A stretch of DNA of 64,000 bases from NCBI GenBank assembly GCA_020847695.1, contig JADLBP010000211.1:1-64000 (forward strand), read 5' to 3'. Within the stretch, counting starts at the first letter, position 1, and each line of letters opens with the position of its first letter. Of the stretch, positions 9,597 to 48,178 are shown one piece after another. Position numbers and translations under genes: made by a program. The notes under the pieces were generated by a model that was not told where the DNA came from, did not search any database, and saw only the letters and a program-made list of their open reading frames with translations. Source of the stretch: Planctomycetota bacterium (GTDB lineage Bacteria > Planctomycetota > UBA1135 > GCA-002686595).

Positions 9597-9660
9597 TGCC
9601 TCCTGCGCTGTGAGGCTCGCCCACTGGCGCGTCGTCGTCCTCTGGAGTGCGGCCGTGGTT

Positions 9661-9864: not shown

Positions 9865-10260
9865 GGTGGTGGACCTGTCCAGTGCGCGTTGACGTCGCGG
9901 TCGGACGAGATCGTGAAACCAATCGCGTGCGATCGGCCGGCTTCGCGCGTCGTCCGAGCTCCGTTCGCGTGCCAGCGCGTTGCTCGGGCTCGATGGCGGA
10001 GCTCGGTGCGCGGAGCGGACGACGATCCGGTGCCGGGACGGCGAACGCCGGCTCGCTCCACGGCGTTGCAGTTCGATGATCGCGGGATCGACGCCGCGAT
10101 GTGCTCTCTCTCCTCGGTCAGGCGCTGGCTCCGGCGCTCGACCTCGCGCACGCAGTCCGCGAGCACGCGCGCTGGCGCCGCGTGCAAGGCGCGGTGAACG
10201 GCGAGCGTCGCACGACGCGGTCGCGCAGCTGCGGGCGCCTCTGGACCTCGGCGACGCTAG

Positions 10261-10388
10261 GAATCGCGGATCGATGCAACCTGGCGCGGGTTCCGGCGGC
10301 AATCCCGAGGACGGACTGCTTCGGGTCCGGAGGCCCGCTCGAGGCCTCGGCGAAGCGGGCCGGTTGCCCAGGAATCCAGGAGAATCCG
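10261..10388 (+). promoter_or_regulatory. Conserved leader of duplicated gene B
   Basis: This is the counterpart of 8851-8978, with 126 of 128 bases identical. It carries the same hairpin arms and the same AGGAG ribosome binding site before ATG 10389. Confidence 0.5.
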
Positions 10389-26176: not shown

Positions 26177-26377
26177 GGGGGGCTGGGGGCGGCGAAACGA
26201 CGCGTGAGGGGCGCGTCCGCCGGCGGGGGGCTAGTTCGACCGCGCGCCGAGTCGGTCTTGACGCCCGCGTCCGGAATCGAGCGCTCTCGCTCGCGACTCC
26301 AGCGCGCCCCGTCGAGCGACCGATCGACGGGGCTTCGGAACGTCCGCTCTCGCCATGAAATCGCGCCGCGCCCAACC

Positions 26378-26383
26378 TAGACT
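26378..26383 (+). promoter_or_regulatory. Candidate -10 hexamer TAGACT
   Basis: TAGACT ends 7 bp before ATG 26391, so initiation there would give a transcript with almost no leader. No Shine-Dalgarno sequence is visible, which fits leaderless translation. No good -35 was recognised. Confidence 0.25.
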
Positions 26384-26390
26384 CCGCCCG

Positions 26391-30932: not shown

Positions 30933-32900
30933 ATGCAAGAACGCTTCGCGCTGCGCTTCGAGAGCGGAGACCGGCGCGGTGAGACGATCGGGATCCCGGC
31001 CGCCGGCCTGAGCCTCGGCCGCCGGCCCGGCAACTCGGTGCAAGTCCTCGACGCGTCGGTGTCCGGCAAGCACGCCGAGCTCTCGGTCGACGCGCGAGGC
31101 GTGACGCTGCGGGACCTCGGTTCGACCAACGGCACGTTCGTCGGCCAGGAGCGCGTCACCGGCGAACGCCGGCTCGCGCACAAGGACGTGGTCGTGCTCG
31201 GCAAGGTCCGGTTGGTCTTCATCGACGGCGATCTCGACCCCAATCCCGAGCCGAGCGACGCCGCGGGCGGCCTCGAGCTCGAAGGAGACGTCCCCGGCGC
31301 GAACGCCGCCGCGGCGGGCGAAGGCCTTCAGACGATCAGCGCCGACAAGCTCGCGCGCTCGGGCAAGCGCTCGATCCTGGTCGGCGTCGGCCTGGTGGTC
31401 GTCGTCGCGGCGGGCGCGGGCGGCTGGTGGTTCTTCGGCCGCGGCGGCAGCGCGAGCACCGGCCCGCGCCGGCCGGTCGCCGACCTTCCCGGCAACCTGA
31501 TCCCGACCGGCTTCTCGTTCGAGCGCGAGCTCGTCGGCTGGGACTCGCCCGAGGACGCGACCGCGCGCTTCTTGGTCGACGGCACCGCGGCCGCGACCGG
31601 CGAGTCCGGCGCGCGCGCGACGCTCGCGACCGGCGAATGGGCGTCGCTGCGCTCGACCGACGTGCGCGCGACCGCCGGCAAGGCGCTGCGCGCGGTCGGC
31701 GAGCTCGACGCCGACGGCGGCGTGCGCGCGTGGCTCGGCATCGAATTCTCGGACTCGACCGGCGAGCGCAAGCCGTTGGTCGCATGGTCGGAGCCGGCGG
31801 CCGGCGACGGAGGGCTCGCGCATCGCGAGGTCGTCGCGCCGGTGCCCCCGGGGCACGACCGAGCGCGCGCGGTGGTGCTCGCGCTCGCGACCGGTGATTC
31901 GGGCAATGCCTCCGCCGACGACGTCGGGCTGGTGACCGCGAGCGACGTCGCCGCGGCGCCGAAGGTCGGGGAGTTCGTCTGGCTGGGCTTCGGCGATCCG
32001 GTGCGCGCGGGCGTGCTCGGCAAGATCGATCGCCCGTTGCTCTCGAACATCCGCGTGGTCGCCGACGGCGGCGAGCTCGCGTCGCTCGACGCCGCGCCGC
32101 TCTCCGCGAAGCCCGTCGACGACGGCTTCGCGCTGGAGCTCGGTCGCGGCGCGGCGCGCACGCTCGCGCTGCGTGTCGAGCCCGCGGTCGTCGCCGAAGG
32201 CATCGCGACGCTCGGCGACGGCGGCCTGCGCACGCACCAAGTCGAGTTCGCGCGCGAGGGCGTCGAGAGCCTGTTGGTCGGCGCCGGGCTCGACCTCGTC
32301 CGCGTGCGCTTCTCGACGCCGGTCAAGCTGACGGGCACGCCCGACGGCGCCGCGTTCCGCATCGAAGCCGCGCTCGGAGCCGACGCGAGCGCGCTCGCGC
32401 TCCAGGTCGTGTTCCAGAAGGAGCGCGCGTTCGCCGACGACGCCGCGCGCCGCGCGCGCGAGGCGGAGAAGCAAGGCCGGCTCGGCGAGTGCCTCGCCGC
32501 GTGGCGCGAGCTGCTCGACCGCGCGCCGTTCGACGCGCAGTTGGTCAAGGAGGCCGAGGGCGCGCGCTCGCGGCTGATCCAACAAGGCCTGGTCGAGGTG
32601 CAGGACGCGAAGCAATCCGCCGAGCGCGCGCGCTTCTTCCGCTTGGTCGACCTCTTCCGCCAGTGCCGCGAGGGCGCGCGAGCGATCGCCGCCAAGTACA
32701 CCGGCAGCGAGGTCGAGACCGCCGCGGTCGCGCTGGTCGGCGAGATCGATCGCGACCTCGCCGGCCTCGAGCAAGACCTCAACACCGCCGAGCGCGCGCG
32801 CCTGGAGTCGATCCTCGCCGCGCTCGAGGCACGAAAGAGCCCCGCGCTCGCCGCTCGCGTGCGCGAAGTGCTCACGCAGCTCCCCGGAGGAACGAAGTAG
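30933..32900 (+). CDS. FHA-domain transmembrane protein at the head of the pseudopilin operon
   Basis: The 655-residue protein has an FHA domain at about residues 25-95 (SLGRRPGNSVQV, SVSGKHAELSV, LRDLGSTNGTFV), which binds phosphothreonine. A linker and one TM helix at about 145-168 follow, then a large extracytoplasmic region with a jelly-roll-like part (about 185-310) and a helical C-terminal third rich in AREAEKQ/ARLE. The topology puts the FHA in the cytoplasm, so a Ser/Thr kinase could signal to the assembly. Its stop codon is followed directly by the start of the PilM-PilN gene. No ribosome binding site is visible before its ATG. Confidence 0.85.
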   Translation: MQERFALRFESGDRRGETIGIPAAGLSLGRRPGNSVQVLDASVSGKHAELSVDARGVTLRDLGSTNGTFVGQERVTGERRLAHKDVVVLGKVRLVFIDGDLDPNPEPSDAAGGLELEGDVPGANAAAAGEGLQTISADKLARSGKRSILVGVGLVVVVAAGAGGWWFFGRGGSASTGPRRPVADLPGNLIPTGFSFERELVGWDSPEDATARFLVDGTAAATGESGARATLATGEWASLRSTDVRATAGKALRAVGELDADGGVRAWLGIEFSDSTGERKPLVAWSEPAAGDGGLAHREVVAPVPPGHDRARAVVLALATGDSGNASADDVGLVTASDVAAAPKVGEFVWLGFGDPVRAGVLGKIDRPLLSNIRVVADGGELASLDAAPLSAKPVDDGFALELGRGAARTLALRVEPAVVAEGIATLGDGGLRTHQVEFAREGVESLLVGAGLDLVRVRFSTPVKLTGTPDGAAFRIEAALGADASALALQVVFQKERAFADDAARRAREAEKQGRLGECLAAWRELLDRAPFDAQLVKEAEGARSRLIQQGLVEVQDAKQSAERARFFRLVDLFRQCREGARAIAAKYTGSEVETAAVALVGEIDRDLAGLEQDLNTAERARLESILAALEARKSPALAARVREVLTQLPGGTK

Positions 32901-34541
32901 ATGGCCCGCACGGTCACCGGCGTCGACATCGGCAAGCGCACGGCCAAGTTCCTGCGCGGCTTCTGGAAGGACAACACCTTCCACGCCACCGCGTTCGCCG
33001 TCTCCCACCACGCCGAAGGTTCGGTCGCGGCGGCTTGGAAAGCGAGCGAGCTCTCGTTCAAGCCGACCGACGCGCGCATCGGACTCACCGGCCGCGACGT
33101 CAACATCCGCTACACGCGCGTGCCGCGCGTGCCCGACTGGCAGCTGCGCAAGCTGATGCGCTTCGAGGTCGAGGAGATCGGCGGTCAATCGGGCTCGGAG
33201 GTCGCGAGCGACTTCAACGTGCTCCCGAACCTGCCCGAGGTCGAGGGCGAGGACGTCGTGCTGCTCGCGATGGCGCGCGAGTCGCTGCTCGAGGAGCACC
33301 TGCAAGGTCTCGCGGCGGTCGGCGGCAAGGTCGACGCGTTCACGCCGCTCGCGATCGCGCTCTACAACGCGTGGCTGCGCTTCGGCGCGATCGAGGACCA
33401 GACGGTCCTGATCGCGAACATCGGCCACGAGAACCTCGACGTGATCCTGGTGCGCGGCCCGGACTTGCTGTTCGCGCGCAACCTGTCCGGCGGTTCGTCG
33501 CTCTTCGACGCCGCGATCGCGGAGCGCTTCGGCGTCTCCGCGCGCAAGGCCGAGGAGCTGAAGAAGGAATTCGCGACGCTCGAGCCCGGTGGCACGTTCA
33601 AGGACGGCAACCAGGAGAAGGCGAGCCGCGCGGCACAAGCCGCGGCGGGGCAACTGCTCTCGCTGCTGCAGTCGACCGTGATGTTCTGCAAGAGCCAGGT
33701 CAACCTGACCGGTCTGCGCGTCGACAAGGTCTTGCTCTGCGGCGGCGGCGCGGCGCTCAAGGGATTGCCGCGCTACCTGCAGAACGCGATGAACGTGCCG
33801 GTCGAGCTCTTCGACCCGTTCACCGTCGTCGACACGACGTCGCTCTCGCCCGAGGAGGGCGAGCTGCTCGATCAACACGCGCTCGAATCGGTCGCGGTGC
33901 TCGGGCTCGCCACGCTCGCGTCCGATCCCGACGGCTATTCGATCGAGATCCTGCCGCGCAAGGTCGCGCGCGCCCGCGATTTCGCGCAGGGCACGGTGTT
34001 CCTGATCGCCGCCGCGGTGTTGGTGGTCGGATTCCTCGGTTACGAGGCGTGGCGCACGCACTCGTCGCTGCAGAAGGTCCGCCAGCAAGCGTCCGCGGCC
34101 GACGCGCAGTTGAAGCGCGCCGACGCGATCGATCGCAAGACCCGCGATCTCTCCGAGGAGAGCGCGAAGCTCGCCGAGCGCGCGCGCGATCTCGCCGAGC
34201 TCGCGGGCTCGGGCGAGCAGGTCGCGCGCGTGCTGCACACGCTCGCCACCGAGCTGCCGCGCGACTTCTGGATCACGCAGCTCACCAGCGAGACGCGCTT
34301 CGACGACGCCCTCGGCGTGCCGCGCGGTTCCGAGTGTCCGATCGTGCACGTCGAAGGTCGCGCGCAGGAAGGCACCGAATCGACGTCGGTGCTCTTCGAG
34401 AACCTGGTGCGCGGGTTGAACGAGAAGCTCGGCGCGCCCGCGATCTCGCAGAAGCTCTCCAACACCGGCGACAAGTTCACGCTCGACCTGACCACCCTGG
34501 CGCTGCGCGAGACCGCGGCCCCGAAAGAGGAGCGCCCGTGA
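32901..34541 (+). CDS. pilM: PilM-PilN fusion (type IV pilus/type II secretion assembly platform)
   Basis: Residues 1 to about 350 form an actin-like PilM/GspL-cyt domain: GVDIGKRTAKFL phosphate-binding start, LIANIGHENLDVILV middle, and LCGGGAALKGL adenosine motif. A TM helix at about 363-383 follows, then a coiled coil and a PilN-like periplasmic domain (VARVLHTLATELPRDFWITQL, VHVEGRAQ). In most bacteria PilM and PilN are separate proteins; fused forms correspond to GspL of type II secretion. It overlaps the next gene by GTGA. It should couple a cytoplasmic motor to the pseudopilus, but no motor gene is in the window. Confidence 0.88.
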   Translation: MARTVTGVDIGKRTAKFLRGFWKDNTFHATAFAVSHHAEGSVAAAWKASELSFKPTDARIGLTGRDVNIRYTRVPRVPDWQLRKLMRFEVEEIGGQSGSEVASDFNVLPNLPEVEGEDVVLLAMARESLLEEHLQGLAAVGGKVDAFTPLAIALYNAWLRFGAIEDQTVLIANIGHENLDVILVRGPDLLFARNLSGGSSLFDAAIAERFGVSARKAEELKKEFATLEPGGTFKDGNQEKASRAAQAAAGQLLSLLQSTVMFCKSQVNLTGLRVDKVLLCGGGAALKGLPRYLQNAMNVPVELFDPFTVVDTTSLSPEEGELLDQHALESVAVLGLATLASDPDGYSIEILPRKVARARDFAQGTVFLIAAAVLVVGFLGYEAWRTHSSLQKVRQQASAADAQLKRADAIDRKTRDLSEESAKLAERARDLAELAGSGEQVARVLHTLATELPRDFWITQLTSETRFDDALGVPRGSECPIVHVEGRAQEGTESTSVLFENLVRGLNEKLGAPAISQKLSNTGDKFTLDLTTLALRETAAPKEERP

Positions 34542-35317
34542 CCAAGGTCGAGGACTTCTGGCAGGAGAACAAGCGCTTCGTGCTCGGCGTCGCCGCCGGC
34601 GCGGCGGTGTTCGGCATCGGCTGGCTCGCGACCGAGAAGACGCTCGGCGCCGACCTGCGCACGCAGCGCGCGCGCTTGTCGACGATCGAGAAGCAGCTCG
34701 CGCAACCGCGCTACGTCGCCGCCGACCAGGCGCGCGCCGAGGCCGAGCGCGAGCGCTTGAGCCAAGCGGTCGCGACGTTGACCGATGCCGTGGCGTTCCA
34801 TCCGCGGCCCGAGTTCGCGCTCGACGGCACGTCGCCCGCCAACCGCTACTTCGCCGTGCAGTCGCGCGTGCGCGAGGAACTCTTGACGCTCGCCGGCCGC
34901 GCGGGCCTGGTCGTGCCCGAGGGGCTCGGCTTGCCCGCGCTCTCGCCGACGAAGGAACAGGAGATCGTGCGGTATCTGGAGGCGCTCGACGTCGTCGAGC
35001 GCGTCGTCAAGCTCGCGATCGAGGCCGGTTGCGAGCGCATCGACGAGATCCGGATCGCGCTCGACCCGCGGCTGGTGTCGGGCAAGAGCATCCCGGACAT
35101 CGAGAAGACTTCGATCGAGCTCGATCTGATCGGCGCGTCGGCGCCGCTCGCGCGCTGGATCGCGCTGACGCAGCAAGAGCGGTTCGGCGACGTGCTCTTG
35201 ATCGACAAGCTCAACTTGCTCGCGTCGCGCACCAAGGCCGACGAATCCAGGCTCGAAGTCGTCTTCCGCGTCGCGCACCTCTACGGCGACCTCGAAGCCG
35301 GGAAGGAAAAACCGTGA
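34538..35317 (+). CDS. pilO: PilO/GspM-like assembly protein
   Basis: The 259-residue protein has a short cytoplasmic start, one TM helix at about residues 14-30 (FVLGVAAGAAVFGIGWL), a coiled coil at about 40-75 and a periplasmic ferredoxin-like domain (RYLEALDVVERVVKLA, IELDLIGASAPLARWI). This is the order seen in PilO and GspM, which pair with PilN/GspL in the inner membrane. GTG 34538 is the start and overlaps the stop of the PilM-PilN gene. It also overlaps the next gene by GTGA. The family assignment rests on topology and context, since sequence conservation in PilO is low. Confidence 0.78.
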   Translation: MTKVEDFWQENKRFVLGVAAGAAVFGIGWLATEKTLGADLRTQRARLSTIEKQLAQPRYVAADQARAEAERERLSQAVATLTDAVAFHPRPEFALDGTSPANRYFAVQSRVREELLTLAGRAGLVVPEGLGLPALSPTKEQEIVRYLEALDVVERVVKLAIEAGCERIDEIRIALDPRLVSGKSIPDIEKTSIELDLIGASAPLARWIALTQQERFGDVLLIDKLNLLASRTKADESRLEVVFRVAHLYGDLEAGKEKP

Positions 35318-38022
35318 ACGTCCGCAAGGAACAGGTGGTCTTCGCGGTGACCGTCGTCGCCGTCGGAGGGCTGGTCGCGACGACCGCGACCGATTCCGGG
35401 CCGCGCCGCGCGTCGGCTTCGGCCGGTCAGGCGGTCGAGCTCGTCGAACGCCCCGCGCCGGACGTCGCGCGCTCTCTGCCCGCGAAGCGCGAACTCTCCG
35501 CGTTCGAGCGCGATCTGCTCTCGCAGCCGCGCGACACGCGACCGCTGCCGCCGCTCGACATCGAGGAGCCGCCGCTCGCGTCGCTGCCCGGCCTGTTCCC
35601 GCCGACGGTGCCCGGGCCCGCGCCCGCGTTCTTCGGCAAGCTCCTGCGCACCTCCGCGGCGCCGACGCGCGTCGAGGGGCTGTTCGCCGAGGCCGGTGAG
35701 CTCGGCGGCGAGGACCTCGCCGAGGATGCGGGCGGCGCGCTCGCGGAGCTCGCCGCCGCCGCGAAGGACCAACGCAAGCCGACGCCGGAGGAGCTCGCGG
35801 CGCAGCTCGAGAGCTGGAAACGCCTCTACGACTGGATCCGGATCAACGAAGGCCGTCCGTTGTTCGGCTACATCCGCAACGAGGATCGCTTCGGCCTGCA
35901 CCTCGCGGCGAACGAGCCGGTGCTGTTCGTCGAGGTCGACCCGGAGAGCGGCAAGGAGAAGTTCCCCGGTCAGCAGCCGACGCGCTTCGAGCGCGCGCGC
36001 GTGCTCGAGTTCGCGCTCGCCGCGAGCTTCGAGAACCAACTGCAGATCCGGCGCCGCGAGTTCGGCAAGACGATCAGCGCGGGCCAGTACCTCGCGGTGC
36101 TCGGCTTCGCCGACGAGTGCGTGCGTCGCCGCTCCGAGGCGCGCCGCGCGCTCGAAGTCGCGGAGGAGATGTACAAGCTCGCCGCGTCGCAGTCCGCCGA
36201 CGATCCCGCGCCGCGGCTCGGGCTCGCGCGCTGCTACGAAGCCGGCTTCGACTTCGATCGCGCGTACCAGGTCTACCAGGAGCTCCTCTCCGGCGGCTTC
36301 GCGCACCGGCCCGAGGTGCACGCGCGTCTCGCGGAGCTCGAAGCGCGTTTCCGCCTGTTCGACAGCGCCGAAGCGCGTCTGCGCGAGGCCGAGCGGCTCG
36401 GTCGCGGCGACTGGTCGGTCGCGTGGACGTTCGGTCGCTTCCTGCTCGACCGCGCGCGGCCGGCGGAAGCGCTCGAGCGCCTGAAGACCGCATACAAGTT
36501 CGAGCCTGCGGGCGAGGACAAATCGGTGCGCGCGGCGATCCGCTACGACCTCGGACGCGCGCACTGCGCGGTCGGTGAGCTCTCGCAGGCTCGCGAGCTC
36601 TTCGAGAAAGCGCTGCAAGCGGACGTGACGTACGCGCGCGCACGTGCCGGACTCTCGGCGGTCGACACGCTGCTGAAGAAGCCGGCGGGCGCGATCGTGG
36701 TCGAGCGCGACCGCGCGACGTTCGAGGAGCTCTACGACCACGCGCTCGCGGACCTCGCGGCGAAGCAGTGGATCGAGGCGCGCGACGGGCTGACGCTCGC
36801 CGCCAACGCCGATCCGTTGCGCGCGCACCTCGCGTGGCGCGCGCTTTCGTGGCTCGCGGAGGTCACCGGCTATCCCGACGAGTCGCTGCGTTGGATCGAA
36901 GAGGCGTACACCGCCGACCCGACCGATGCGTGGACGTGCTACCAACGCGGTCGCGTGCTCTCGCAGCGCGACGACCTCGACGGCGCGCGCGAGATGTTCG
37001 CGAAGGCGCTCGACCTCGATCTCGATTTCGCCGACGCGCTGGTCGCCCTGGGCGAGCTCTCCGCTCGACGCGGCGAACGCGACGCGGCGGAGCGTTACTA
37101 CGAGCGCGCGCTGACGCTGGAACCGGCGCGCGCCGAGGTGCACGCGCTGCGCGGCTGGAACCTGCTCTTCTCGGGCGACGTGCGCGCGGCGCAGGACGCC
37201 TTCAAGAAGGGCGCGGAGCGCGATCGCAACGACGCGTCGTGCGGTCTCGGCCTCGCGTGGTGCACGTACCGCGGCGGCCAGGTCGAGCCGACGCTGCAGC
37301 AGTTCGCCGACGTCGAGGACGCGCGCCGCGCGTTCGGCGACGAGGACGCGCTGAAGCTCTACGCGCGCCGCCAGGTCGCGCGGATCAGCGATCACGCCAG
37401 CAAGGTGATCTGGACCGATCGCTTCGAGCGCCGCGTCTTGCGCAACGAGTGGGTGAGCGAGGAGGCCGCCGGCCCGACGATCGCGATCGTCGACGGCGAG
37501 CTCGTCCTGCGCGGCAACTTCACCGAGAACGGCGCGACGCGCGCGTGGCGCGAGTGGCCGCCGGCGGTGTTCTACGCGCTCGATCTCGACGTGACGATCA
37601 CCAACGAGTCCAAGGCTCGCGTCGGCGTGTTCCTCGCGAAGGAACGGCCGATCCGAGCCGGCGGCGTGCAGACGCTCGGCAAGGTCGCGGTCGCGCGCCA
37701 CATGGAGGGCGGACTGCAGGTGCTCACGCAGGACCGTTCGGACAACCAGGAGAGCTGGACCGACGTGCCGCCGGTCGACGGCGTCGCGTGGTGGCCGACC
37801 GACAAGACGGTGCACATCCACCTCGAGCGCGTCGGCGAAGGCTCCGACGCGACCGGGCGCATCGCGGTCGACGGCATCACGGTCGCCGAGGGCTTCCGGA
37901 TGACCGCGCTCGCGGCGACCAACCAGAACCTGCGCGTCGGCGTCTTCGCCGAGGGCGCGACGGGCCGGCCGTTGAAGGTCGAGATCGACAACGTCGAAGT
38001 CGTCTACCGGGCGACCAAGTAG
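35314..38022 (+). CDS. Large TPR protein with a C-terminal LamG-like domain
   Basis: The 902-residue protein begins with a TM/signal anchor at about residues 7-25 and a proline-rich linker to about 115. A helical domain, then many TPR repeats from about 260 to 690 follow (for example RLGLARCYEAGFDFDRAYQVYQ read in parts, and GELSARRGERDAAERYYERAL). The C-terminal 200 residues form a concanavalin/LamG-like beta sandwich (WTDRFERRVLRNEW, VDGELVLRGNFTE, IAVDGITVAEGFRM). It sits between PilO and the pseudopilins. In this position some systems encode PilP/GspC, so it may be a substitute connector to the outer membrane; that is inference. The start GTG 35314 overlaps the previous stop. Confidence 0.82.
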   Translation: MNVRKEQVVFAVTVVAVGGLVATTATDSGPRRASASAGQAVELVERPAPDVARSLPAKRELSAFERDLLSQPRDTRPLPPLDIEEPPLASLPGLFPPTVPGPAPAFFGKLLRTSAAPTRVEGLFAEAGELGGEDLAEDAGGALAELAAAAKDQRKPTPEELAAQLESWKRLYDWIRINEGRPLFGYIRNEDRFGLHLAANEPVLFVEVDPESGKEKFPGQQPTRFERARVLEFALAASFENQLQIRRREFGKTISAGQYLAVLGFADECVRRRSEARRALEVAEEMYKLAASQSADDPAPRLGLARCYEAGFDFDRAYQVYQELLSGGFAHRPEVHARLAELEARFRLFDSAEARLREAERLGRGDWSVAWTFGRFLLDRARPAEALERLKTAYKFEPAGEDKSVRAAIRYDLGRAHCAVGELSQARELFEKALQADVTYARARAGLSAVDTLLKKPAGAIVVERDRATFEELYDHALADLAAKQWIEARDGLTLAANADPLRAHLAWRALSWLAEVTGYPDESLRWIEEAYTADPTDAWTCYQRGRVLSQRDDLDGAREMFAKALDLDLDFADALVALGELSARRGERDAAERYYERALTLEPARAEVHALRGWNLLFSGDVRAAQDAFKKGAERDRNDASCGLGLAWCTYRGGQVEPTLQQFADVEDARRAFGDEDALKLYARRQVARISDHASKVIWTDRFERRVLRNEWVSEEAAGPTIAIVDGELVLRGNFTENGATRAWREWPPAVFYALDLDVTITNESKARVGVFLAKERPIRAGGVQTLGKVAVARHMEGGLQVLTQDRSDNQESWTDVPPVDGVAWWPTDKTVHIHLERVGEGSDATGRIAVDGITVAEGFRMTALAATNQNLRVGVFAEGATGRPLKVEIDNVEVVYRATK

Positions 38023-38035
38023 GAGCGCGACGAAC

Positions 38036-38674
38036 ATGCGCGGGATGCGGACCTCGGACGCGCGCGGCGGCTTCACGCTGATCGAGCTGCTCGGCGTGAT
38101 CGTGATCGTCTCGATCTTGATGTACTTCCTGATCACGCGGCTCTCCGGCGTCGACGAGACGGTCAAGGTCCGCGTCGCGCGCCAGAAGATCGAGCAGATC
38201 GCGGCAGAGCTCGCCGACTACGAAGTCGACAAGGGCGACTACCCGCGCTCGACGTTCCGCACCGAGTGGGGACAGCCACCGAACAACCTCAACGTCGGTT
38301 GCGAAGCGCTCTACCTGGCGCTGTGGCAGAAGGGGATCGACGGCGCGGGTCTCGGCGAGGACTTGCTCGGCAACCACGACGGCGACGCGACGACCAAGCG
38401 CCTGACGGTCAACCCGTCGCTCGACCTGTTCGAGCTCCAGGATCCGTGGGAGAACCCGCTCGCGTACTTCCACCACTCCGATTACGGCCGCAAGGATCGC
38501 TACTCGTCGTCGCAGCCGGACACCGGCGAGGCGTTGGAGTCCGAGCTCACCGCGCGAAAGAGCACGAAGACCGGCAATTGGTTCAATCCGCAGACGTTCC
38601 AGCTGATCTCCGCCGGACCCGACGCGTTGTTCGGGACCGAGGACGACATCGGTAACTTCGACAGCGGATCGTGA
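38036..38674 (+). CDS. gspG: GspG-like major pseudopilin
   Basis: The 212-residue protein has a class III prepilin leader RGGFTLIELLGVIVIV with Gly before Phe at the cleavage site and Glu at +5. A hydrophobic helix to about residue 32 follows. Downstream features match GspG: a conserved LADYEVDKGDYPRS segment, a WENP loop with PWENPLAYFHHS, and the acidic C-terminal GPDALFGTEDDIGNF typical of the calcium-binding end of GspG. The start ATG has a GGAG site. A prepilin peptidase, not present here, must process it. Confidence 0.93.
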   Translation: MRGMRTSDARGGFTLIELLGVIVIVSILMYFLITRLSGVDETVKVRVARQKIEQIAAELADYEVDKGDYPRSTFRTEWGQPPNNLNVGCEALYLALWQKGIDGAGLGEDLLGNHDGDATTKRLTVNPSLDLFELQDPWENPLAYFHHSDYGRKDRYSSSQPDTGEALESELTARKSTKTGNWFNPQTFQLISAGPDALFGTEDDIGNFDSGS

Positions 38675-38681
38675 CGCAGCC

Positions 38682-39794: not shown

Positions 39795-42700
39795 AGCCCG
39801 CACCGCTCACGCTGCGTCGATCGCGCTCGCTCCGTCCCTGCGGAGGCGCTTCGACGTCGAACGATCGACGCGGCTTGGCGCTGATCCTGGTGCTGCTCGC
39901 GTTGCTCGCGGTGTTCTTCTTGTGCGCGCCGTTCCTGATGAGCGCGCGCAACGCGACGCGGGCATCGGGTTCGCTCGCCGATCGCGCGCAAGCGCGGCTC
40001 TCGCTCGACGCGGGCTCGCGACACGCGGAGGCGCTGCTCTCTCGCTCGCACCCGGCGATCGACGGCACGCCGTACTACGACGACGAGGAAGAGCTTGCCG
40101 TCGACTCGAGCTTCGACCCGAAGTTCTGGAACGCGCGCGATCCGCAGGGCTCGATGTGGGACCTCGAGTCGCGCGACGTCGCGGGCCTGATCGATTGGAA
40201 CAGCGCGCCGCCGGGCGTCTTCGCGAACGCACTCGGCGCCGTCACGCGCAGCACCGACAAGCTCTCGGGCTCCGACACCGAGCTGACGGTCTCCAGCACC
40301 GCCGGTTTCGAGCCGCAAGGCTTTCTCTGGATGGGGCGCGAGCTGATCGGCTACGGCGAGCTCGACGCGACGACGTTCAAGAAGCTCGTGCGCGGGCTCG
40401 GCGCGACGTTCGACGCCGACGGCAACGCGGCGCAGTGTGGTCCGCAGCCCGCGTACCCGCACGACCCCGGCGAGCTCGTGATCGACCAACGCGCGTTCGC
40501 ACATGTCCTGTGGCGCATCCACGCCGGCGACGGCGTGTTGCGGCGTTTCGAGGGCGTCGATCAGCTCGCGGAGGCCGCGGCGGACTCGTTGGCGGGCAAG
40601 TTCTCGGCGGACGCGCTCGCGGTGCTCGCGCGCCACGGCTCGACGTTCGCCGGCGTGCGCGCGGGCCACGAATGGCAGCGCGCCGCGCGGCTGACCACCG
40701 CGGTGACCGGCGGCGAGACGTGCGTGCTCGGCGTCGACGACGCGCACTGGTTCAACCCGGGCGCGACGGTTCGGATCGACGACGGCAAGACCGCCGAGTT
40801 CGCGCTGGTCGAGGACGTGCTCGGCAACGGCCGCGTCCGCATGCGCCAACCGCTGCAGCAGGACTACGCCGCGTTCACCGCGGAGGTGCGCGTGCTCGCG
40901 CGCCGGCCGGTCAACGTCAACACCGCGACGGCCGAGGTGCTCCAGCTCCTGTTCGAGAACCTGCAGCTGCGCGGCGTCAACGATCGCATCACCAAGAGCG
41001 AAGCCCAGGCGCTCGCGGCGCTGGTGATCGACTCGCGACCGTTCGTCGGCGAAGAGGACTTCCTGCGCCGCGTCGTGCTGCCCGCCGCCGGGCTCGAGCG
41101 GCTGCCCGCGGATGCGACGGTCGTCCCTCCCGCGTTGGAGGACGGCTCGACGTCGATCAGCGCCTACGACGCGATCGCGCTCTACGCGAACGCGCACAAC
41201 GCGAACGATGTCGCGCTCGCGTACTCGACGATGCCGCTCTCGTTCGTCTCGCGCGACGTCTACGCGGTCGAGGTGCGCGCGTCGATCAACGCGGAGAGCG
41301 GGCTCGAGCGCGTCGCGATGGTGCGCGACGAAGTCGACGTGATCGCGCCGCAGCGCGAGCTGATGCAGCTCTGGACGCGCCAGGAGGACTTCGACACCGC
41401 GCTGCGGCTCGACCGCGAAGCTCCGTTCTGGATGACCGGTCCGCGCGCGACCTCACCGTACGATTCGGGCTCCGAGCCGCCGTCGCGCTTTGTGGCGCAC
41501 ATCGGCACGAGCCAAGGCCGCGTGTACGTGCCGGGCGTGACCACGCTGCCGGCCGGGACCGACCCGAGCTCGATCCCGACGCCCGAGCACATCTTCGCGT
41601 CGCGCGAAGACGACGGCTGGGCGCAGCTCTGGCCGTCGCGCCTCACGGAGACGCAGACCAACAACGGCCACGTCCTGCACTTCGACCACGAGACGCGCGA
41701 TCCCGAGGGCCGCTACCTGCCCGACGAGGTCTTCCAGGACGCGACGACGTCGAACTTGGTCGCCTGGAGCGATCCGGCGAGCGGCTTCGCGTTCCCGCTG
41801 TCCTTCTCGTTCTGGATGAAGCCGCAGAACCTGACCGACGGGCTCTTCCTGGACCTCGGCAAGAGCTCGATCGAGTCCGATCGGATCACGCTCGGCATCG
41901 AAGGCGCCGATCTCGTGCTCCGCGTCTACGACGGCGCCGGCGACCATCCGGATACGCCGGGCATCGATGTCGGCGAAGCGCGCTTCGCGGTCGCGCCGGG
42001 CACCGATCCGGGCCTCTTGAAGGACACGTGGTCGCACGTGTCGATCGACGTGCGCGGCACGCGGCCCGACCAGATCTCGATGCTGGTCGACGGCCGCGAC
42101 TTCGGCGTGCGCCAGAGCGGCTTGACGCGCTTGACCAGCGCGCTCGTGCAGACGACGAGCTCGTTCACGGTCGAGAGCGACGAGGGCTTCCCCGATCAGT
42201 GCGTCGTGCGCGTCGGCGACGAGCTGCTCGAGGTCGTCAAGCAGGGCAAGAACTCGTTCCGCGTCGCGCGCAACGAGACCGGGCCGCTCGCGGGCTTCGG
42301 CGGCAGGCTCGCGCGCGAGTACTTCGACCTCGGGTTGACGGCGGGCGAGGAGCCCGGCGTCAACGCGGCGCTCGGGAAGGACACGACGCACGCGCCGGGC
42401 ACGAGCGTGATGCTCTACGGCTACTCGATCCCGATCGCGTCGAACGTGCCGGCGGCGGCGTCGCAGCTGCAGGGCAGCCTCGGCATGTTCGCGGTCGGCG
42501 TCGCGGTGGGGGTGGTCGGCGGTTCGCAGTCGAACGGCGATCCGATCTCCGTCTTCCACATCGACCACCCGCACGACCTTGGCTTCGGCATGGACGGGGC
42601 GGGGAGCAACGTCAACGGCCTCGTCCTCACGAACGCCGACCCCACGATGACGCCGCAGCAGGTGCTGCAGGCGTTCTCTCCGAGCGGCGGCTACGCGCTC

Positions 42701-44956
42701 GTGCTCCAGCGCCAAGTCGACTACCTCAACCTCGGCGCGGAGGGAGTCCTCAACAAGCCGATCAGCGGGTTGAACTCGCAAGTCGGCGGCGCGGAGATCA
42801 TCCGCTACTCGGGCTATGACCTCGGGTCGCGCACGCTCTTCATCTCCAAGCGCGCCGCGCTGCAAACGGGGAACACGCCGCCGGCCCAGCGTGCGTTCGT
42901 CACGACCTGGCAGAATTTCAGACCCGGCGGAGTCGACGCGCAGACGCTGCTCGAGTGGCACGCCTTCGTCATCCCGATCTCCGTCGCGGTGCCGGGCGCG
43001 ACCGGCGCGGCGGGTTTCCTGATCCCGAACGGCGGCTCGGAGTTCGCGCAGATCACGCACGTCGACCAGGCCGAGCTCACCGAGTGGGTGCGCTACGACA
43101 CGATTCTCGGTCAGGATCTCGTCCGCAACGACCAGAACGCGATCACGGCGCTTTCGCTCGCGGTGCTGCACGTCCTGTCCGGTGGGGGCGACGTGGCTCC
43201 CAATCCCCCGAGCGGCGGCGGAGGCCCGGGCGGCGGCGGCGGGCCGTCGAGCAAGCCCGACCCCGACGGCGGCTTCGCGTTCGCGACCGCGGCGACCGCG
43301 CCCGCGAGCGCGGGTGCGAGCTCGGGAGCGAGCTCCGCGCCTCAGTCGTTCGCGAGCTCCGATTGGTTGCCGCACCTCGGCGAGCCCGAGGACACCGACT
43401 ACCCGCTGACGCGCGCCGCGCGCGAGGCCTTCCAGTTCCGCGGCGTGCTCGGCACGTACTCGCACAAGCACGATGCCGGTACGCCGGTGCTCCCGGTTTG
43501 GCGCGTGCAGCGCAGCGACGTGCACGGTGGCCGACCGGGACGGCTCGACTCCGCGTTCCTGATCGACTCCGATCCGACGAGCCCGGGCTGGCCGGTGCGA
43601 TTGCAGCACGTCCACATCCCGTTCCAGCACACCGCGCACGGCTGGACGACCGCCGGCGATCCGATGGTTCCGGTCGCGGCGCAAGGCGCGGCGGCGGTGG
43701 TGCAAGCGGGTTTCGACACGCAGGCGACGTACGTCGCGCTCCAGCGGGCCGCGCCGGTGCCGGTCGCGGCGGGCACGATGGCGCAGAATCCGCCGGGCTT
43801 CGAGACGCGGCTGTGGTCGCGCTTGGTGATGCATCCGAGCGGCGAGCGGCCGCGCGAAGTCGACCGCGTCGTGGTCGGCGGCTCGATCCGCGGCGGGCTG
43901 GTGCCGTCGGCGACGGTCGACGAGCTCGTGTTCGGCACGACGAAGTTCGGGCAGGGCACCACCCAAGGCGATGCGCTCTACGGCGCGAACCTGGTGTTGA
44001 CGCGCGCGTTCAGCGAGGCGCAGCTCGACTTCCAACTCGCGCCGCGCGCCGTGCGCACCGCGCGCGGAGTGTGGGGCGACCCGGCGGTGTACTTCCTCGA
44101 TCAACTGCCGAAGGATTGCGGGCTGCTCAAGCTCGGCAGCGAGATCCTCGCGTACGACGCGTACGACCAAGTCTCCGGCGAGGTGCAGGTCGCGCCGAAC
44201 GGTCGCGGCTTGCTCGGCACGCGGCCGCAACCGCACGAGCTCGGCGAGACCGCGATGTTCCTCGATGCGTGGGCGGTGTCGCAGCTCGGCGGCCAGATCG
44301 GCGCAGCGGATGCGAGCCTGCGGCTCGAGGACCTCGCGGACTTCCAACCGGAAGGCACCGTGCTGGTCGGCGACGAGCTCGTCCACTACACGCGCTTCGA
44401 AGGCATCGGCCTCGGGATGCCGCGCGCGTCGCGCGATCCCGGCGAGCAGGATCAGAAGGGCGCACCGCTGTTCCGCGGCCGCTTCGGCACCGTCGCGGCG
44501 AGCCACGCGTTCGGCGAGCCGGTGATCGCGTATCCCTTCCGCTACTGGGATCGCTGGGCCGAGCGCGCGGACGCGCCCGAGCTCTCGTACTTCGGCTTCT
44601 CGGTCGATCAGCCGGCCGCTTTCTGGCGGAGCGTCTTCTGGCGCGTCGAGAACGCGGGCTCGGGCTCGGTCGAGTTCGGCGTGCTCCAGCGCACACTCCC
44701 TTCGACGCCGTGGGACGCCGATCCCGAGGGCGCGCCGGGCCTCGCGCTCTTGTGGAAGGGCTCCGACGAGGAGAAGCCGGTCGCGATCGGTGAGCTGTCC
44801 GACCGCGCGGAATGGCGTGCGTTCGTGAAGTACTCGCCGGGCGCGTACGATCCGCTCTCCGGGCTCGCGCACGGTTGGAAGCAGACGCCCCGTTTGCGGG
44901 TGTTCGGCGCCAACTACCTCGCGCCGAACTTGGTGCTGCGCAAGGTGGATCGATGA
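39791..44956 (+). CDS. gspK: Giant GspK-like minor pseudopilin (1,721 residues)
   Basis: The N-terminus has RRGLALILVLLALLAVFFLC: a prepilin-like helix without Glu at +5, as is characteristic of GspK. The GspK alpha domain is recognisable near residues 370-440 by NVNTATAEVLQLLFENL and RPFVGEEDFLRRVV. GspK usually has about 330 residues; here more than 1,200 extra residues follow. These include a LamG-like module (about 640-790: GFAFPLSFSFWMKPQN, KDTWSHVSIDVRG, QISMLVDGRDFGV), an STxGF-type repeat pattern (VSSTAGFEPQGFL; VESDEGFPDQCVV), a glycine linker at about 1140-1155 and further beta-rich domains. GspK caps the tip, so this protein could be an adhesin-like tip. ATGA and TGA overlaps tie it to both neighbours. 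Confidence 0.85.
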   Translation: MKPAPLTLRRSRSLRPCGGASTSNDRRGLALILVLLALLAVFFLCAPFLMSARNATRASGSLADRAQARLSLDAGSRHAEALLSRSHPAIDGTPYYDDEEELAVDSSFDPKFWNARDPQGSMWDLESRDVAGLIDWNSAPPGVFANALGAVTRSTDKLSGSDTELTVSSTAGFEPQGFLWMGRELIGYGELDATTFKKLVRGLGATFDADGNAAQCGPQPAYPHDPGELVIDQRAFAHVLWRIHAGDGVLRRFEGVDQLAEAAADSLAGKFSADALAVLARHGSTFAGVRAGHEWQRAARLTTAVTGGETCVLGVDDAHWFNPGATVRIDDGKTAEFALVEDVLGNGRVRMRQPLQQDYAAFTAEVRVLARRPVNVNTATAEVLQLLFENLQLRGVNDRITKSEAQALAALVIDSRPFVGEEDFLRRVVLPAAGLERLPADATVVPPALEDGSTSISAYDAIALYANAHNANDVALAYSTMPLSFVSRDVYAVEVRASINAESGLERVAMVRDEVDVIAPQRELMQLWTRQEDFDTALRLDREAPFWMTGPRATSPYDSGSEPPSRFVAHIGTSQGRVYVPGVTTLPAGTDPSSIPTPEHIFASREDDGWAQLWPSRLTETQTNNGHVLHFDHETRDPEGRYLPDEVFQDATTSNLVAWSDPASGFAFPLSFSFWMKPQNLTDGLFLDLGKSSIESDRITLGIEGADLVLRVYDGAGDHPDTPGIDVGEARFAVAPGTDPGLLKDTWSHVSIDVRGTRPDQISMLVDGRDFGVRQSGLTRLTSALVQTTSSFTVESDEGFPDQCVVRVGDELLEVVKQGKNSFRVARNETGPLAGFGGRLAREYFDLGLTAGEEPGVNAALGKDTTHAPGTSVMLYGYSIPIASNVPAAASQLQGSLGMFAVGVAVGVVGGSQSNGDPISVFHIDHPHDLGFGMDGAGSNVNGLVLTNADPTMTPQQVLQAFSPSGGYALVLQRQVDYLNLGAEGVLNKPISGLNSQVGGAEIIRYSGYDLGSRTLFISKRAALQTGNTPPAQRAFVTTWQNFRPGGVDAQTLLEWHAFVIPISVAVPGATGAAGFLIPNGGSEFAQITHVDQAELTEWVRYDTILGQDLVRNDQNAITALSLAVLHVLSGGGDVAPNPPSGGGGPGGGGGPSSKPDPDGGFAFATAATAPASAGASSGASSAPQSFASSDWLPHLGEPEDTDYPLTRAAREAFQFRGVLGTYSHKHDAGTPVLPVWRVQRSDVHGGRPGRLDSAFLIDSDPTSPGWPVRLQHVHIPFQHTAHGWTTAGDPMVPVAAQGAAAVVQAGFDTQATYVALQRAAPVPVAAGTMAQNPPGFETRLWSRLVMHPSGERPREVDRVVVGGSIRGGLVPSATVDELVFGTTKFGQGTTQGDALYGANLVLTRAFSEAQLDFQLAPRAVRTARGVWGDPAVYFLDQLPKDCGLLKLGSEILAYDAYDQVSGEVQVAPNGRGLLGTRPQPHELGETAMFLDAWAVSQLGGQIGAADASLRLEDLADFQPEGTVLVGDELVHYTRFEGIGLGMPRASRDPGEQDQKGAPLFRGRFGTVAASHAFGEPVIAYPFRYWDRWAERADAPELSYFGFSVDQPAAFWRSVFWRVENAGSGSVEFGVLQRTLPSTPWDADPEGAPGLALLWKGSDEEKPVAIGELSDRAEWRAFVKYSPGAYDPLSGLAHGWKQTPRLRVFGANYLAPNLVLRKVDR

Positions 44957-46074
44957 GAGCGACGAGAGCCGAACGAGCGCGCCGAGGCGCCGAGCGCGTG
45001 ACGACGACCGAGCGTCGCTCGGGCTTCACGTTGGTCGAGCTGATGGTCGCGTCCGGCCTGCTCGTCATCCTCTCGCTCGCGGTGTTCCAGTTCCTGCGGC
45101 GCTTCACGACGCTCTGGCAGAAGAGCGAGGAGCGGCGCGAGCTCGTCGAGGAAGCGAGCGGCGTCACCGAGCTCTTCGCCGAGGACCTCGCGTCGTTGGT
45201 CAACGGCCCGCGCGGAGACCTGGTCGCCGAGTGGGTGTTCTTCGACACCGACGGCGACGACGTGCCCGAGACGATGTGGCCGCGCGTGCGGATGCTGCGC
45301 TTCGCGACCGAGAGCGAGCTCGCGCGCCTGCAAGCCGGGCTCGATGCCGCGAAGAAGAAGCACGCCGGCGAGGGCGTGCTCGAAGTCGCGTGGCTCGTGA
45401 TGCCCGCGTACGTCGGCAAGAACGAGCCCGATCGTCGCTCCGAGGGCATCGTGATGCGCGGAGAGCGCTTGCAGGGCGGCGAAGGGCTCTCGTTCTTCGA
45501 GCCAGGCTTCTTCGACGCCGCCAACCGCCCGCGTCAGACGCCGAACGAGGTCAGCGGAGGCGTCCTGTGGTTCGGGCTCGAGTTCGCGACGCAGACTTCG
45601 CTCGTTTTCGACGGCTGGAAGGTCGGCGAGGAACTCTCGGACGTCGCGACGTCGTGGGACGCGTGGAATCGCGGCCGCCCGAGCGCCGACCGGCACTTCT
45701 GGAACGAACCCGGCAAGGGCATGCCGAAGGCCGGCGAGCGCGCGCTGCTGCCTCGGCGCGTCCGGCTGACGCTCGAGATCGAGCGCGCCGACGACCGCAA
45801 GCGTCGCACGCGTCTCTCCGCACCGATGGCGTCCACCGACACGACGATCGAGGTCGAGGACGGCTCGCGCGTGCCCGATTCGCGCGGCGCGTTCGTGCGC
45901 ATCGACGCGGAATGGCTCGAGGTCGTCCAAGTCGACGATCGCACGGTCACCGTCCGCCGCGGAGCGCGCGGCTCGAATCCGGTGGGGCACGCGAACGGCG
46001 CGCTCGTGCACTACGGCCGCCAGGTGGTCCGCGAGGTCCCCGTGCGCATGCACCAGGAGGACTGGAACCTGTGA
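44953..46074 (+). CDS. GspJ-like minor pseudopilin
   Basis: The 373-residue protein carries the prepilin motif RRSGFTLVELMVASGLLVIL (Glu at +5) after a basic leader of about 24 residues, then a helix to about 50. Its length exceeds the usual 200 residues of GspJ. The beta domain has GspJ-like features (VRLTLEIERAD near the C-terminus) and an added segment around TTIEVEDGSRVPDSRGAFVRI that repeats the module found in the giant GspK (SSTAGF-type). GspI-J-K form the tip complex of the type II secretion pseudopilus, and all three candidates are adjacent here. The start overlaps the previous stop by ATGA and its own stop overlaps the next start by GTGA. Confidence 0.83.
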   Translation: MRATRAERARRGAERVTTTERRSGFTLVELMVASGLLVILSLAVFQFLRRFTTLWQKSEERRELVEEASGVTELFAEDLASLVNGPRGDLVAEWVFFDTDGDDVPETMWPRVRMLRFATESELARLQAGLDAAKKKHAGEGVLEVAWLVMPAYVGKNEPDRRSEGIVMRGERLQGGEGLSFFEPGFFDAANRPRQTPNEVSGGVLWFGLEFATQTSLVFDGWKVGEELSDVATSWDAWNRGRPSADRHFWNEPGKGMPKAGERALLPRRVRLTLEIERADDRKRRTRLSAPMASTDTTIEVEDGSRVPDSRGAFVRIDAEWLEVVQVDDRTVTVRRGARGSNPVGHANGALVHYGRQVVREVPVRMHQEDWNL

Positions 46075-46625
46075 AGCTCCGCGCGCACACGCCCAGCCGC
46101 CGCGGCGGCCTCACGTTGCCCCGCCGCCGTGGCGGCTTCACCCTCATCGAAATCCTGCTCGCTCTCGGCGTCCTGTTGATCGGGATGACCAGCGTGCTCG
46201 GCCTGCTCGCGTTCGGCGCGGCGATGTCGCGCGCGGCGGCGCTGCGCGGCGAGTCCGCGGCCGCGGCCGAGGCGGTGTTCGCCGACCTCGAGGAGCGCAT
46301 GTTCCCGCTGATCGTCGAGGAGGGCGTCGAGCGCGTCGGCGAGCCGATCGAGGTCGAGTCGAGCCCGGTCCCGGGCTACGAAGGCCTGACGTACAGCGCG
46401 CGCGCCGAGCCCGACGCGCAACTCGCCGCCGAGCTCGGGTATCCCCTGGAGTACAAGGTCGAGGTCGAGCTCTCCTGGACCTCCGGCGGCCGCCGTCGCT
46501 CGCGGACGTACACCACGTTGATGGTGCGCGAAGTCCCCTACGGCGAGCGCCTGCGACGACAATTCATCGAACGCGATCAGCCCAAGCCACCCGCGAAGGC
46601 CGCCGCGCCGAAAACCGAGAAGTAG
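46071..46625 (+). CDS. GspI-like minor pseudopilin
   Basis: The 184-residue protein has RRGGFTLIEILLALGVLLIGM with Glu at +5 after a basic leader of about 22 residues. The ALGVLLIGM stretch and short length are typical of GspI. The mature part (GLTYSARAEPDAQL, YKVEVELSWTSGGRRRSRTYTTLM) fits a small beta domain, and a lysine/proline-rich tail follows. GTG 46071 is the start, overlapping the GspJ-like stop. Two bases separate its stop from the next gene. Assignment to GspI rather than GspH rests on order and the helix sequence. Confidence 0.85.
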   Translation: MKLRAHTPSRRGGLTLPRRRGGFTLIEILLALGVLLIGMTSVLGLLAFGAAMSRAAALRGESAAAAEAVFADLEERMFPLIVEEGVERVGEPIEVESSPVPGYEGLTYSARAEPDAQLAAELGYPLEYKVEVELSWTSGGRRRSRTYTTLMVREVPYGERLRRQFIERDQPKPPAKAAAPKTEK

Positions 46626-46627
46626 CC

Positions 46628-48178
46628 ATGCGCAACCTCCTGCTCTCGCTCAGCCTCGCTCTGCTCGCCTCGCCGGCGGTCGCCGTCTCGTCAGGCGTCG
46701 CGGAGGACTCGCCCGCGTTGACCCTGCTGCACCTCACCGACGGAGGGACGCTGTGGGGCGAGATCGTCGCGCACGATCCGTCGGCGCTGTCGTTCCGGCG
46801 CCTGGACAACGGCGGCGTGGTCAAGCTGCCGTGGAGCGTGCTCGACGTCGCGCAATCGGAGACGCTGCGCGAGACGTACGGCTACGTCGACCACACGCAG
46901 GAAGAGCTGATGCTCGAAGCCGACCGCTTGGTGCTCGACGACGGCACCGAGGTGATCGGCAAGATCGTCGCGCGCACCGACGCCGCGCTGCTGGTCAAGA
47001 CGGCGACCGCGGTCGTGCCGGTGCCGAAGGCGCGCTTGCGCGGCTCGGCGGGGACGCTGCAGGTGCCGGCGCTCGAGATCTACACGCGCGAGGAGCTCTA
47101 CCAGCAAGAGCGCGCGAACCTGGTGCAGGACAGCGCGAGCTCGAACTACGAGCTCGGTCGCTACTGCGAGCGCATCCTCGACTTCGCGCACGCGGCCGAG
47201 CACTACGAGCAAGCCCGCGATCTCGACAAGAAGTTCAAGCCCGACGAGCTGCCGGGGCTGGTCGCGCGCGCGAAGCTGCGCGCCGAGAACCAGGCCCAGC
47301 TTGACTACCTCTACCAAGTCGACCTGCTGCGCGCGCGCAAGCGCTTCGACGAGGCGCAAAAGCTCGCGGACGCGTTCGCGGGGCTCTACCCCGACAGCTC
47401 TCTGCTCGCCGACGTCGAGAAGAAGAAGAAGCAGATCGCCAAGGCGCGCGAGCAGGCGCTGCGCGACGACGTCGTGTCGCTCTACCACTTCCACTTCGGC
47501 CGCGTCGTCGAGTCGAAGGTGCGCGACCCGCAGTTCGGGCTCGAGGCGGCGCTCGAGTACGCGACCGACAAGCTCGCGGAGGATCTCGAGAACGCGGTGC
47601 TCGCCGACCTGCAGCGGCGCGTCTCGAAGGGCGTGCAGATCGAGGAAGTGCGCAAGCACTGGGCGGAGCGCAAGAATCCGCCCGCGCAGAAGGCGAGCTA
47701 CGGGATGGGCACCTGGTTGCTCGGCGAGGACGACGCGCGCAAGGGGCTCGCCGCCGAGGTGCCGAAGGCCGCGCAGACGGAGAAGGACGCCGAGCGCGCG
47801 AAGCTCGAGGAGAAGATCAAGCGCTACCTCGCCAACCAGGCGATGGTGAAGAAGGCGAAGGTCGACGCCGACAAGGAAGGCGAGCCCGCGCAGTTCTGGT
47901 CGACGTGGAACGTCGCCGGCAAGAAGCAGTGGCTGATGGCGTACTTCGTCGAGCACACCAAGGTGTTCCAAGCGACGCGCGCGCTCTTCACCAACTGCCC
48001 CGACTGCGGAGGCACCGGCGTGCGCGAGATCCTGAACACCGGCAGCGCGCGGACCAACGCATCGCCGCAAGGCCGCGGCGGCCAGTCCGCCGGCGGCGCG
48101 AACAGCGCGAGCATCAGCCTGATCGATTGCCCGAGCTGCCACCGGATCGGTGTGCGGCGACGGGTGTCGTATCGCTGA
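46628..48178 (+). CDS. Exported TPR protein with a C-terminal DnaJ-like zinc ribbon
   Basis: The 516-residue protein has a signal peptide (MRNLLLSLSLALLASPAVA), and a beta-rich part at about 30-150 with two similar units (LTDGGTLWGEIVAHD and LDDGTEVIGKIVART). A helical TPR-like middle (YELGRYCERILDFAHAAEHY) and a long charged coiled coil follow. The end holds CPDCGGTGVRE and, after a glycine/serine loop, CPSCHRIGVRR: two CxxC pairs as in the DnaJ zinc ribbon, probably binding one zinc in the periplasm. The same GxxxG beta units occur at the start of the TPR protein at 649-1791. It ends the pseudopilin operon, so a role in assembly or substrate handling is likely. Confidence 0.82.
   Translation: MRNLLLSLSLALLASPAVAVSSGVAEDSPALTLLHLTDGGTLWGEIVAHDPSALSFRRLDNGGVVKLPWSVLDVAQSETLRETYGYVDHTQEELMLEADRLVLDDGTEVIGKIVARTDAALLVKTATAVVPVPKARLRGSAGTLQVPALEIYTREELYQQERANLVQDSASSNYELGRYCERILDFAHAAEHYEQARDLDKKFKPDELPGLVARAKLRAENQAQLDYLYQVDLLRARKRFDEAQKLADAFAGLYPDSSLLADVEKKKKQIAKAREQALRDDVVSLYHFHFGRVVESKVRDPQFGLEAALEYATDKLAEDLENAVLADLQRRVSKGVQIEEVRKHWAERKNPPAQKASYGMGTWLLGEDDARKGLAAEVPKAAQTEKDAERAKLEEKIKRYLANQAMVKKAKVDADKEGEPAQFWSTWNVAGKKQWLMAYFVEHTKVFQATRALFTNCPDCGGTGVREILNTGSARTNASPQGRGGQSAGGANSASISLIDCPSCHRIGVRRRVSYR

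Follow-up and report, generated by a model that had tools for sequence, protein, structure and literature searches.

The DNA analysed here, called the window below, is a stretch of 64,000 nucleotides that forms part of contig C212 of a planctomycete metagenome-assembled genome (MAG), a fragmented assembly of 390 contigs. C40, C48, C83, C93, C132 and C212 stand for contigs of this source genome (G000), and G, L and f for genomes, loci and families. Between positions 30933 and 48178 we confirmed ten co-directional, mostly overlapping open reading frames (ORFs), all in the places given by the original prediction. In order, they encode an FHA protein, a PilM-PilN fusion, a PilO-like protein, a TPR protein, the pseudopilins G, H (with LamG), K, J and I, and a TPR/zinc-ribbon protein. 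Successive genes are separated by 0, −4, −4, 13, 28, −4, −4, −4 and 2 bp, five of these being 4-bp start/stop overlaps. Domains were called on the window proteins with Pfam and NCBIfam models, and the genes, with the modules of H and J, are the following:

30933..32900, + strand: FHA protein with a cytoplasmic FHA domain (Pfam FHA 3e-16), a transmembrane segment near residue 147 and a periplasmic part; kept at most loci
32901..34541, + strand: PilM-PilN fusion, a GspL-type platform protein (PilM_2 8.6e-17, then a transmembrane segment and a PilN-like part)
34538..35317, + strand: PilO-like (GspM-type) protein with a single N-terminal transmembrane segment (assigned by position, transmembrane segment and conserved family A8)
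35314..38022, + strand: TPR protein with an N-terminal transmembrane segment (TPR_2 5e-16)
38036..38674, + strand: GspG-like pseudopilin (T2SSG 1.4e-5; gspG 4.7e-13; N_methyl)
38703..39794, + strand: GspH-like pseudopilin fused to LamG (N_methyl, LamG); the start may be TTG at 38682
39183..39596, + strand: LamG (ConA-like) module of the GspH-like protein, residues 161-298 (PF13385 1.2e-4)
39791..44956, + strand: giant GspK-like pseudopilin, 1721 aa (NF037980 GspK 3e-9)
44953..46074, + strand: GspJ-like pseudopilin, 373 aa (N_methyl 8e-6; gspJ 0.0024)
45805..46014, + strand: beta-barrel module of the K type inside J, residues 285-354 (K module profile d1, 6.4e-8)
46071..46625, + strand: GspI-like pseudopilin, 184 aa (N_methyl 2.6e-5)
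46628..48178, + strand: exported TPR/zinc-ribbon protein with a hydrophobic N-terminus (weak TPR_14 and zinc ribbon); end of the operon at most loci

GspG, H, I, J and K pseudopilins with prepilin motifs are all present, the core of K being assigned by its fold. The PilM/PilN/PilO platform of type IVa pili (T4aP) is also found, PilO by position and transmembrane segment only; the PilO-like protein gave zero Pfam or NCBIfam matches. With the same models, no PilA or PilY1 domain was detected among the ten operon proteins. The fusion of H to LamG, proposed from this sequence in the original prediction, scores 22.7 bits in the source genome, under the Pfam cut-off of 27.6, and is borne out by the orthologues: N_methyl is matched by 23 of 23 and Laminin_G_3 by 18 of 23, at best with 5.5e-16. 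Binding-type domains had thus been placed correctly on H. A LamG label on the C-terminal part of the TPR protein was not borne out by Pfam, and the picture was corrected by a LamG-like fold in K and a K-type barrel in J; the K module profile d1 also matches J of other genomes.

The GspK-like protein, described earlier as about five times the normal length, measures 5.6 times the 307 positions of the GspK model. AlphaFold2 models built from 32-row alignments had a mean pLDDT of 80.1 (residues 20-1125) and 78.6 (residues 1190-1721). The best structural match of the model was Pseudomonas XcpX (6utu_C; Z 13.6, root-mean-square deviation 2.7, 211 of 261 residues); GspK was not in the Foldseek top 50, and the match emerged only upon VIA re-alignment. 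The modules recognized in K are as follows:

39983..41353, + strand: GspK core, residues 65-521 (AlphaFold2 model against XcpX)
40202..40501, + strand: phage-tail-type beta-barrel module 1, residues 138-237 (profile matches to other copies; Chi tail tip 8vjh Z 8.6)
40667..40900, + strand: beta-barrel module 2, residues 293-370 (9n71 Z 12.0; 4ru4 tailspike Z 11.9; JBD30 baseplate Z 10.4)
41717..42436, + strand: LamG-like domain, residues 643-882 (agrin G2 3pve Z 8.7; neurexin Z 7.5; laminin LG Z 7.0)
43991..44272, + strand: beta-barrel module, residues 1401-1494 (JBD30 baseplate 8rk3_b Z 11.2; module profile)
44276..44560, + strand: beta-barrel module, residues 1496-1590 (Chi tail tip 8vjh Z 8.3; module profile)
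44546..44935, + strand: C-terminal beta-sandwich, approximately residues 1586-1715 (AlphaFold2 pLDDT mostly >85)

The GspK core is interrupted by modules 1 and 2, and the LamG-like domain is itself split by a barrel copy at approximately residues 778-830 (profile match). The profile of one K barrel recovers most other copies in K and the one in J, and residues 1496-1590 are among the most conserved stretches of the protein. For the C-terminal sandwich, no structural match rose above background (GOLD domain Z 6.5, CBM61 Z 5.2). Among 24 giant Ks, Laminin_G_3 (PF13385) was matched by nine and Rcc01698_C, which we take to be the family of a gene-transfer-agent tail protein, by five. In structure the barrels are akin to portions of the tail tips, baseplates and tailspikes of phages. 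F1-type ATPases contain a similar barrel too, so the likeness does not establish that they come from phages. The predicted structure indicates that the combination of a genuine GspK core with a LamG fold is real. Made by insertion of phage-tail-type modules into the GspK fold, these proteins would be the largest GspK-type tips known to us.

The operon is not an oddity of one genome, and the same gene order, which the original prediction proposed to look for in other planctomycetes, is indeed kept in other families. A giant K was found in 59 of 61 related genomes (the source included) and, by single-sequence search, in at least 131 of 244 Planctomycetota genomes; a profile search added families that the single-sequence search had overlooked. 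Full-length K profile matches were lacking in f10, f30, f48 and f23. Complete giant Ks range from about 1250 to 2310 aa across the phylum, as uninterrupted ORFs with conserved residues over the full length, one of them in a single-contig genome. In G068 (f16) there are two giant K loci, L156 and L157, encoding 2310 and 1794 aa. We inspected gene order within approximately 20 kb around 40 loci, the first 20 of which cover eight families of the order. The operon order is fully or largely kept at nearly all 40. At most of the first 20 all ten genes are present, a few loci having no detectable FHA or PilO or being cut by contig ends; the phylum-level loci keep the order too, with the FHA or zinc-ribbon protein absent in some (L122-L125) and little apart from K at L116 and L121. 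PilMN alone, used as query, retrieved six Planctomycetota MAGs. Because the order is conserved in other families, the operon is more than a chance arrangement; it is standard equipment of much of the Planctomycetota, and the size of K is the usual form in the phylum rather than a peculiarity of the source genome.

None of the 40 loci has gspD, gspE or gspF within approximately 20 kb. The claim that the window holds no GspE/F, secretin or prepilin peptidase stands: searches of the source genome found no GspE, GspF or A24 peptidase on the window contig, and its sole secretin lies at 130 kb, beyond the window. Unlinked genes of these kinds were located elsewhere in the genome. Contig C132 carries a type II secretion system (T2SS), gspD-E-F-G-H-I-J, and C83 carries type IV pilus (T4P) genes (PilT-B-C-A, PilM-N-O-Q) together with the sole A24 prepilin peptidase found in the genome. 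At 130 kb on C212 a lone short secretin stands beside an ordinary-size GspK. This mini-locus (L040, G000:C212:122000-140000, ORFs at approximately 6983-10348), conserved in f1, f5 and f41, typically encodes a small exported protein, a short secretin (420-529 aa) and an ordinary GspK (425-561 aa); where readable, its flanks are what we take, naming them from sequence without a search, to be pnp on one side and purA-uppS-cdsA on the other. Its GspK probably completes the unlinked T2SS, which has no K at its own locus. The original prediction had named a complete T2SS elsewhere, with a GspK of its own, as a refutation, and in part such a system exists; the genome therefore has two pseudopilin sets, while the giant K stays and the operon remains unexplained by the T2SS. 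Two further kinds of locus were noted. On C93 (L039), a compact secretin-GspE-GspF group precedes GspG-like pseudopilin sequence whose reading frame also includes another pilin-like segment. A pair of large secretins, in frames of approximately 870-1300 aa about 6-10 kb apart, is present in most genomes searched (C48:24514-31052, L045; G051:C23:245-256 kb, L197).

The remaining cluster, on C40, comprises PilB2-PilT-PilB1-PilC, with no further pilus gene nearby. In the operon-bearing genomes inspected, C40-type clusters are motors without pilins, PilMNO or secretin, whereas the operon is the reverse. Both PilBs lie close together in 16 of 16 further operon-bearing genomes, with PilT between them except in G073. 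In two of these genomes, G051 and G048, which have the smallest inventories, this motor and the T2SS account for the only GspF/PilC loci, a finding in favour of pairing operon and C40. The orthologues are scattered in G102 (f28) and G068 (f16), where profile scores recovered PilB1, PilB2 and PilT; an apparent absence of the motor in these two families was rejected, as the genes are merely unclustered. A PilC adjoins the operon in f28; scoring 326.6 bits with the T2SS profile against 309.8 with the C40 profile, it could not be placed in the C40 clade. In other families, motor and pseudopilins are linked. In f10, f30, f36, f42 and f48 the orthologous motor stands directly ahead of pseudopilins and a K-like protein measuring 922-1645 aa, and in f45 ahead of small H-I-J pseudopilins. 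The ATPases and PilC of f36 and f45 fall in the C40-type clades of the trees, those of f10, f30 and f42 following by profile score. The motor-linked K of f42 (922 aa) has a GspK core and then LamG, as in the window K (hhalign probability 97.0; Pfam 6.4e-5). In f45, a low-GC family, one block (L148:2572-19814, G104:C74) contains PilMN, PilO, a possible PilP, an ABC permease, an 1852-aa GspK-core protein, I, J, PilB, PilB and PilC. Together these observations, comparative in nature, are the strongest argument for regarding the window operon and C40 as halves of a single machine. Lacking pilins itself, and with orthologues that share a gene block with pseudopilins and in most cases a large K-like protein, the C40-type cluster is, judged from gene content and linkage, probably a dedicated motor that is unlinked in the source genome. 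The original prediction was right about a pseudopilus set with no linked motor; that it borrows its motor is probably too strong. Parts of one machine would then be inherited together although encoded apart.

Several observations weigh against this pairing. The motor-linked Ks of f10, f30, f36 and f48 show little similarity to the window K, or similarity at the pilin helix only. A mirror-tree analysis of nine genomes gave mean partial r values of −0.09 and −0.08 for operon genes with T2SS and C40-type motor genes, respectively, which favours neither, although PilMN leans slightly toward the T2SS. In the GspG tree, f36 G joins the operon side only by a long branch (93/90), and the placement of f30 contradicts the profile scores. 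No secretin could be assigned to the operon. Finally, the f42 genome G097 has a giant-K operon (L203/L219, its C82) and a motor-linked pseudopilin set (L155, its C46) at separate loci, so that the motor there may work with the latter; the case allows for duplication and exchange.

On balance we favour, as reasonably likely, a retractable pseudopilus of T4P/T2SS-like type with a large adhesive tip, whose platform and subunits are encoded in the operon and whose PilB2-PilT-PilB1-PilC motor is unlinked. PilM-PilN, PilO, the membrane-anchored TPR protein and the FHA protein would form the inner-membrane platform, G the major pseudopilin, and H, I, J and the giant K the minor ones. GspK-type tip assembly is established and predicts that K caps the filament together with H, I and J. 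K would then sit at the tip with its LamG and phage-tail-type barrel modules exposed. The C40 motor would contribute two assembly-type ATPases and the retraction ATPase PilT, by virtue of which the filament would probably be able to extend and retract; pilin processing would fall to the C83 peptidase, and the exit would be an unlinked secretin.

Alternatively, the operon could be the second half of the C132 T2SS, supplying PilMN-PilO and a specialized giant-tip pseudopilus driven by the T2SS GspE/GspF; it would then secrete proteins or select substrates, its tip lying in the periplasm or within the secretin. The C132 locus has no GspL/M-type proteins, loci of its type never contain PilMN/PilO or K, and G051 and G048, the genomes with the smallest inventories, have only two GspF/PilC loci (T2SS and C40-type), so that without a C83-type T4P motor the operon PilMN may be the sole platform there; the slight lean of PilMN in residual correlation points the same way. 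However, the T2SS owns a full G-H-I-J set, an ordinary-size GspK lies at the conserved mini-locus, and the GspGs of operon and T2SS form separate clades. Moreover, the T2SS-linked PilM of f30 and f48 reaches 19-29 bits against the operon PilMN, compared with 110 bits for the PilMN linked to the C40-type motor in f45, and the C40-type motor would be left without pilins. We consider this alternative unlikely, though deserving of serious weight. In another reading, which we regard as improbable, the operon would supply the C83 T4P with priming minor pilins and an adhesin, like fimU-pilVWXY1E, with K standing for PilX plus PilY1. A T4P is indeed present on C83, and T4aP usually have an unlinked operon of minor pilins that includes a large tip adhesin, but an own PilMN and PilO would be superfluous in a minor-pilin cluster, and G051 and G048 have the operon and no third PilC locus of the C83 type. 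That an ordinary T2SS pseudopilin operon had its K inflated by mis-assembly or false ORF fusion, as a MAG in 390 contigs might suggest, is hardly conceivable, being refuted by the uninterrupted giant Ks of independent genomes.

The favoured pseudopilus combines traits of known systems. As in the T2SS, with Pseudomonas XcpTUVWX, the G, H, I, J and K classes lie in one operon; XcpX shares its GspK core fold with K, while PilM-PilN corresponds to GspL and PilO to GspM. The operon differs in having no linked D/E/F, in the length of K, in LamG on H and K, in a likely motor that contains PilT, and in coexisting with a separate T2SS. T4aP resemble it in the PilM/N/O platform, in the PilB-PilT-PilC type of its likely motor, and in encoding a large tip protein within an unlinked group of minor pilins; here, by contrast, the pseudopilins are Gsp-type, without PilA/PilY1, and K itself would include the adhesin of the tip. 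In the cyanobacterial Hps locus (HpsA-D), pseudopilins occur with a large partner and a motor from elsewhere. Operon proteins match HpsB/C models weakly, and the likeness to Hps is one of gene make-up. The Verru_Chthon cassette A-D (TIGR02596/98/99/600), with pilin-like B, C and D and a large A (1296 positions), is of comparable make-up; H, J and I match its D, C and B weakly, all far under the cut-offs, and Verru_Chthon_A (TIGR02600) matches 1 of 24 giant Ks (E 0.0014, under cut-off). The closest named family to the operon PilM, NF045709 (Amuc_1101 PilM-like; 1.5e-41, 143 bits, below the curated cut-off of 650), belongs to the Akkermansia MUL2 locus (Amuc_1099-1102, PilM being MUL2B), which, in the portion of the source available, has four genes and no giant K, unlike the operon (PMC13174399). 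In the modular pilins PilB and PilC of Streptococcus sanguinis a ConA-like lectin module is grafted on a pilin, as in H and K, the extreme modular pilin listed having 860 residues (PMC8179133). An N-terminal pilin segment and a LamG/ConA module share one chain in H and, by fold, in K; the operon differs in grafting on GspH and GspK, in the 1721 aa of K and in conserving the whole set as an operon.

LamG on two pilins, the extra beta modules and PilT together indicate binding and retraction, and the function is probably to bind polymers or surfaces, perhaps bringing polysaccharide to the cell. Our literature searches found the function of the operon nowhere described, no paper with 'Verru_Chthon cassette' and none with Planctomycetota plus GspK. 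Pili-like fibres of planctomycetes bind dextran in cells with active dextran uptake, fibres and uptake system being uncharacterised (PMC5394234), and selfish polysaccharide import has been described as an unknown mechanism (PMC11131199). For Akkermansia relatives, of a phylum related to the Planctomycetota, a PilM-containing T4P-like locus has been proposed to serve in glycan attachment (PMC13174399). The operon may be tied to these fibres and to glycan attachment. A phylum-level glycan-capture machine, in which a retractable pseudopilus, its lectin-like tip 1.3-2.3 thousand residues long, draws polysaccharide up to the outer membrane or across it and underlies planctomycete fibres and macromolecule uptake, is a bold extension that we hold to be doubtful. 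Planctomycetota do bind and take up large polysaccharides, and a pseudopilus that is conserved in most of the phylum and has a giant, lectin-like tip is a concrete candidate for a part in this.

Adjacent genes were noted as well. Downstream, after a gap of 177 bp and at most loci, lies a chaperone gene that is possibly part of the operon unit:

48356..49585, + strand: PpiC/SurA-type chaperone (Rotamase_2 4.9e-8)

A promoter scan of the operon gave no match, and terminator matches were fewer than in shuffles, which is uninformative at 71% GC. A second SurA/PpiC-type periplasmic chaperone follows at 50529-52409. Upstream, at 26355-28639, are a Ser/Thr protein kinase and then a TPR and peptidase-MA protein; the kinase, close to the FHA protein, could act as a regulator. 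In G073, whose family has no detected FHA gene in the operon, a 619-aa FHA protein (L179:3871, G073:C25) is encoded immediately upstream of the T2SS gspD, and its similarity may be confined to the FHA domain.

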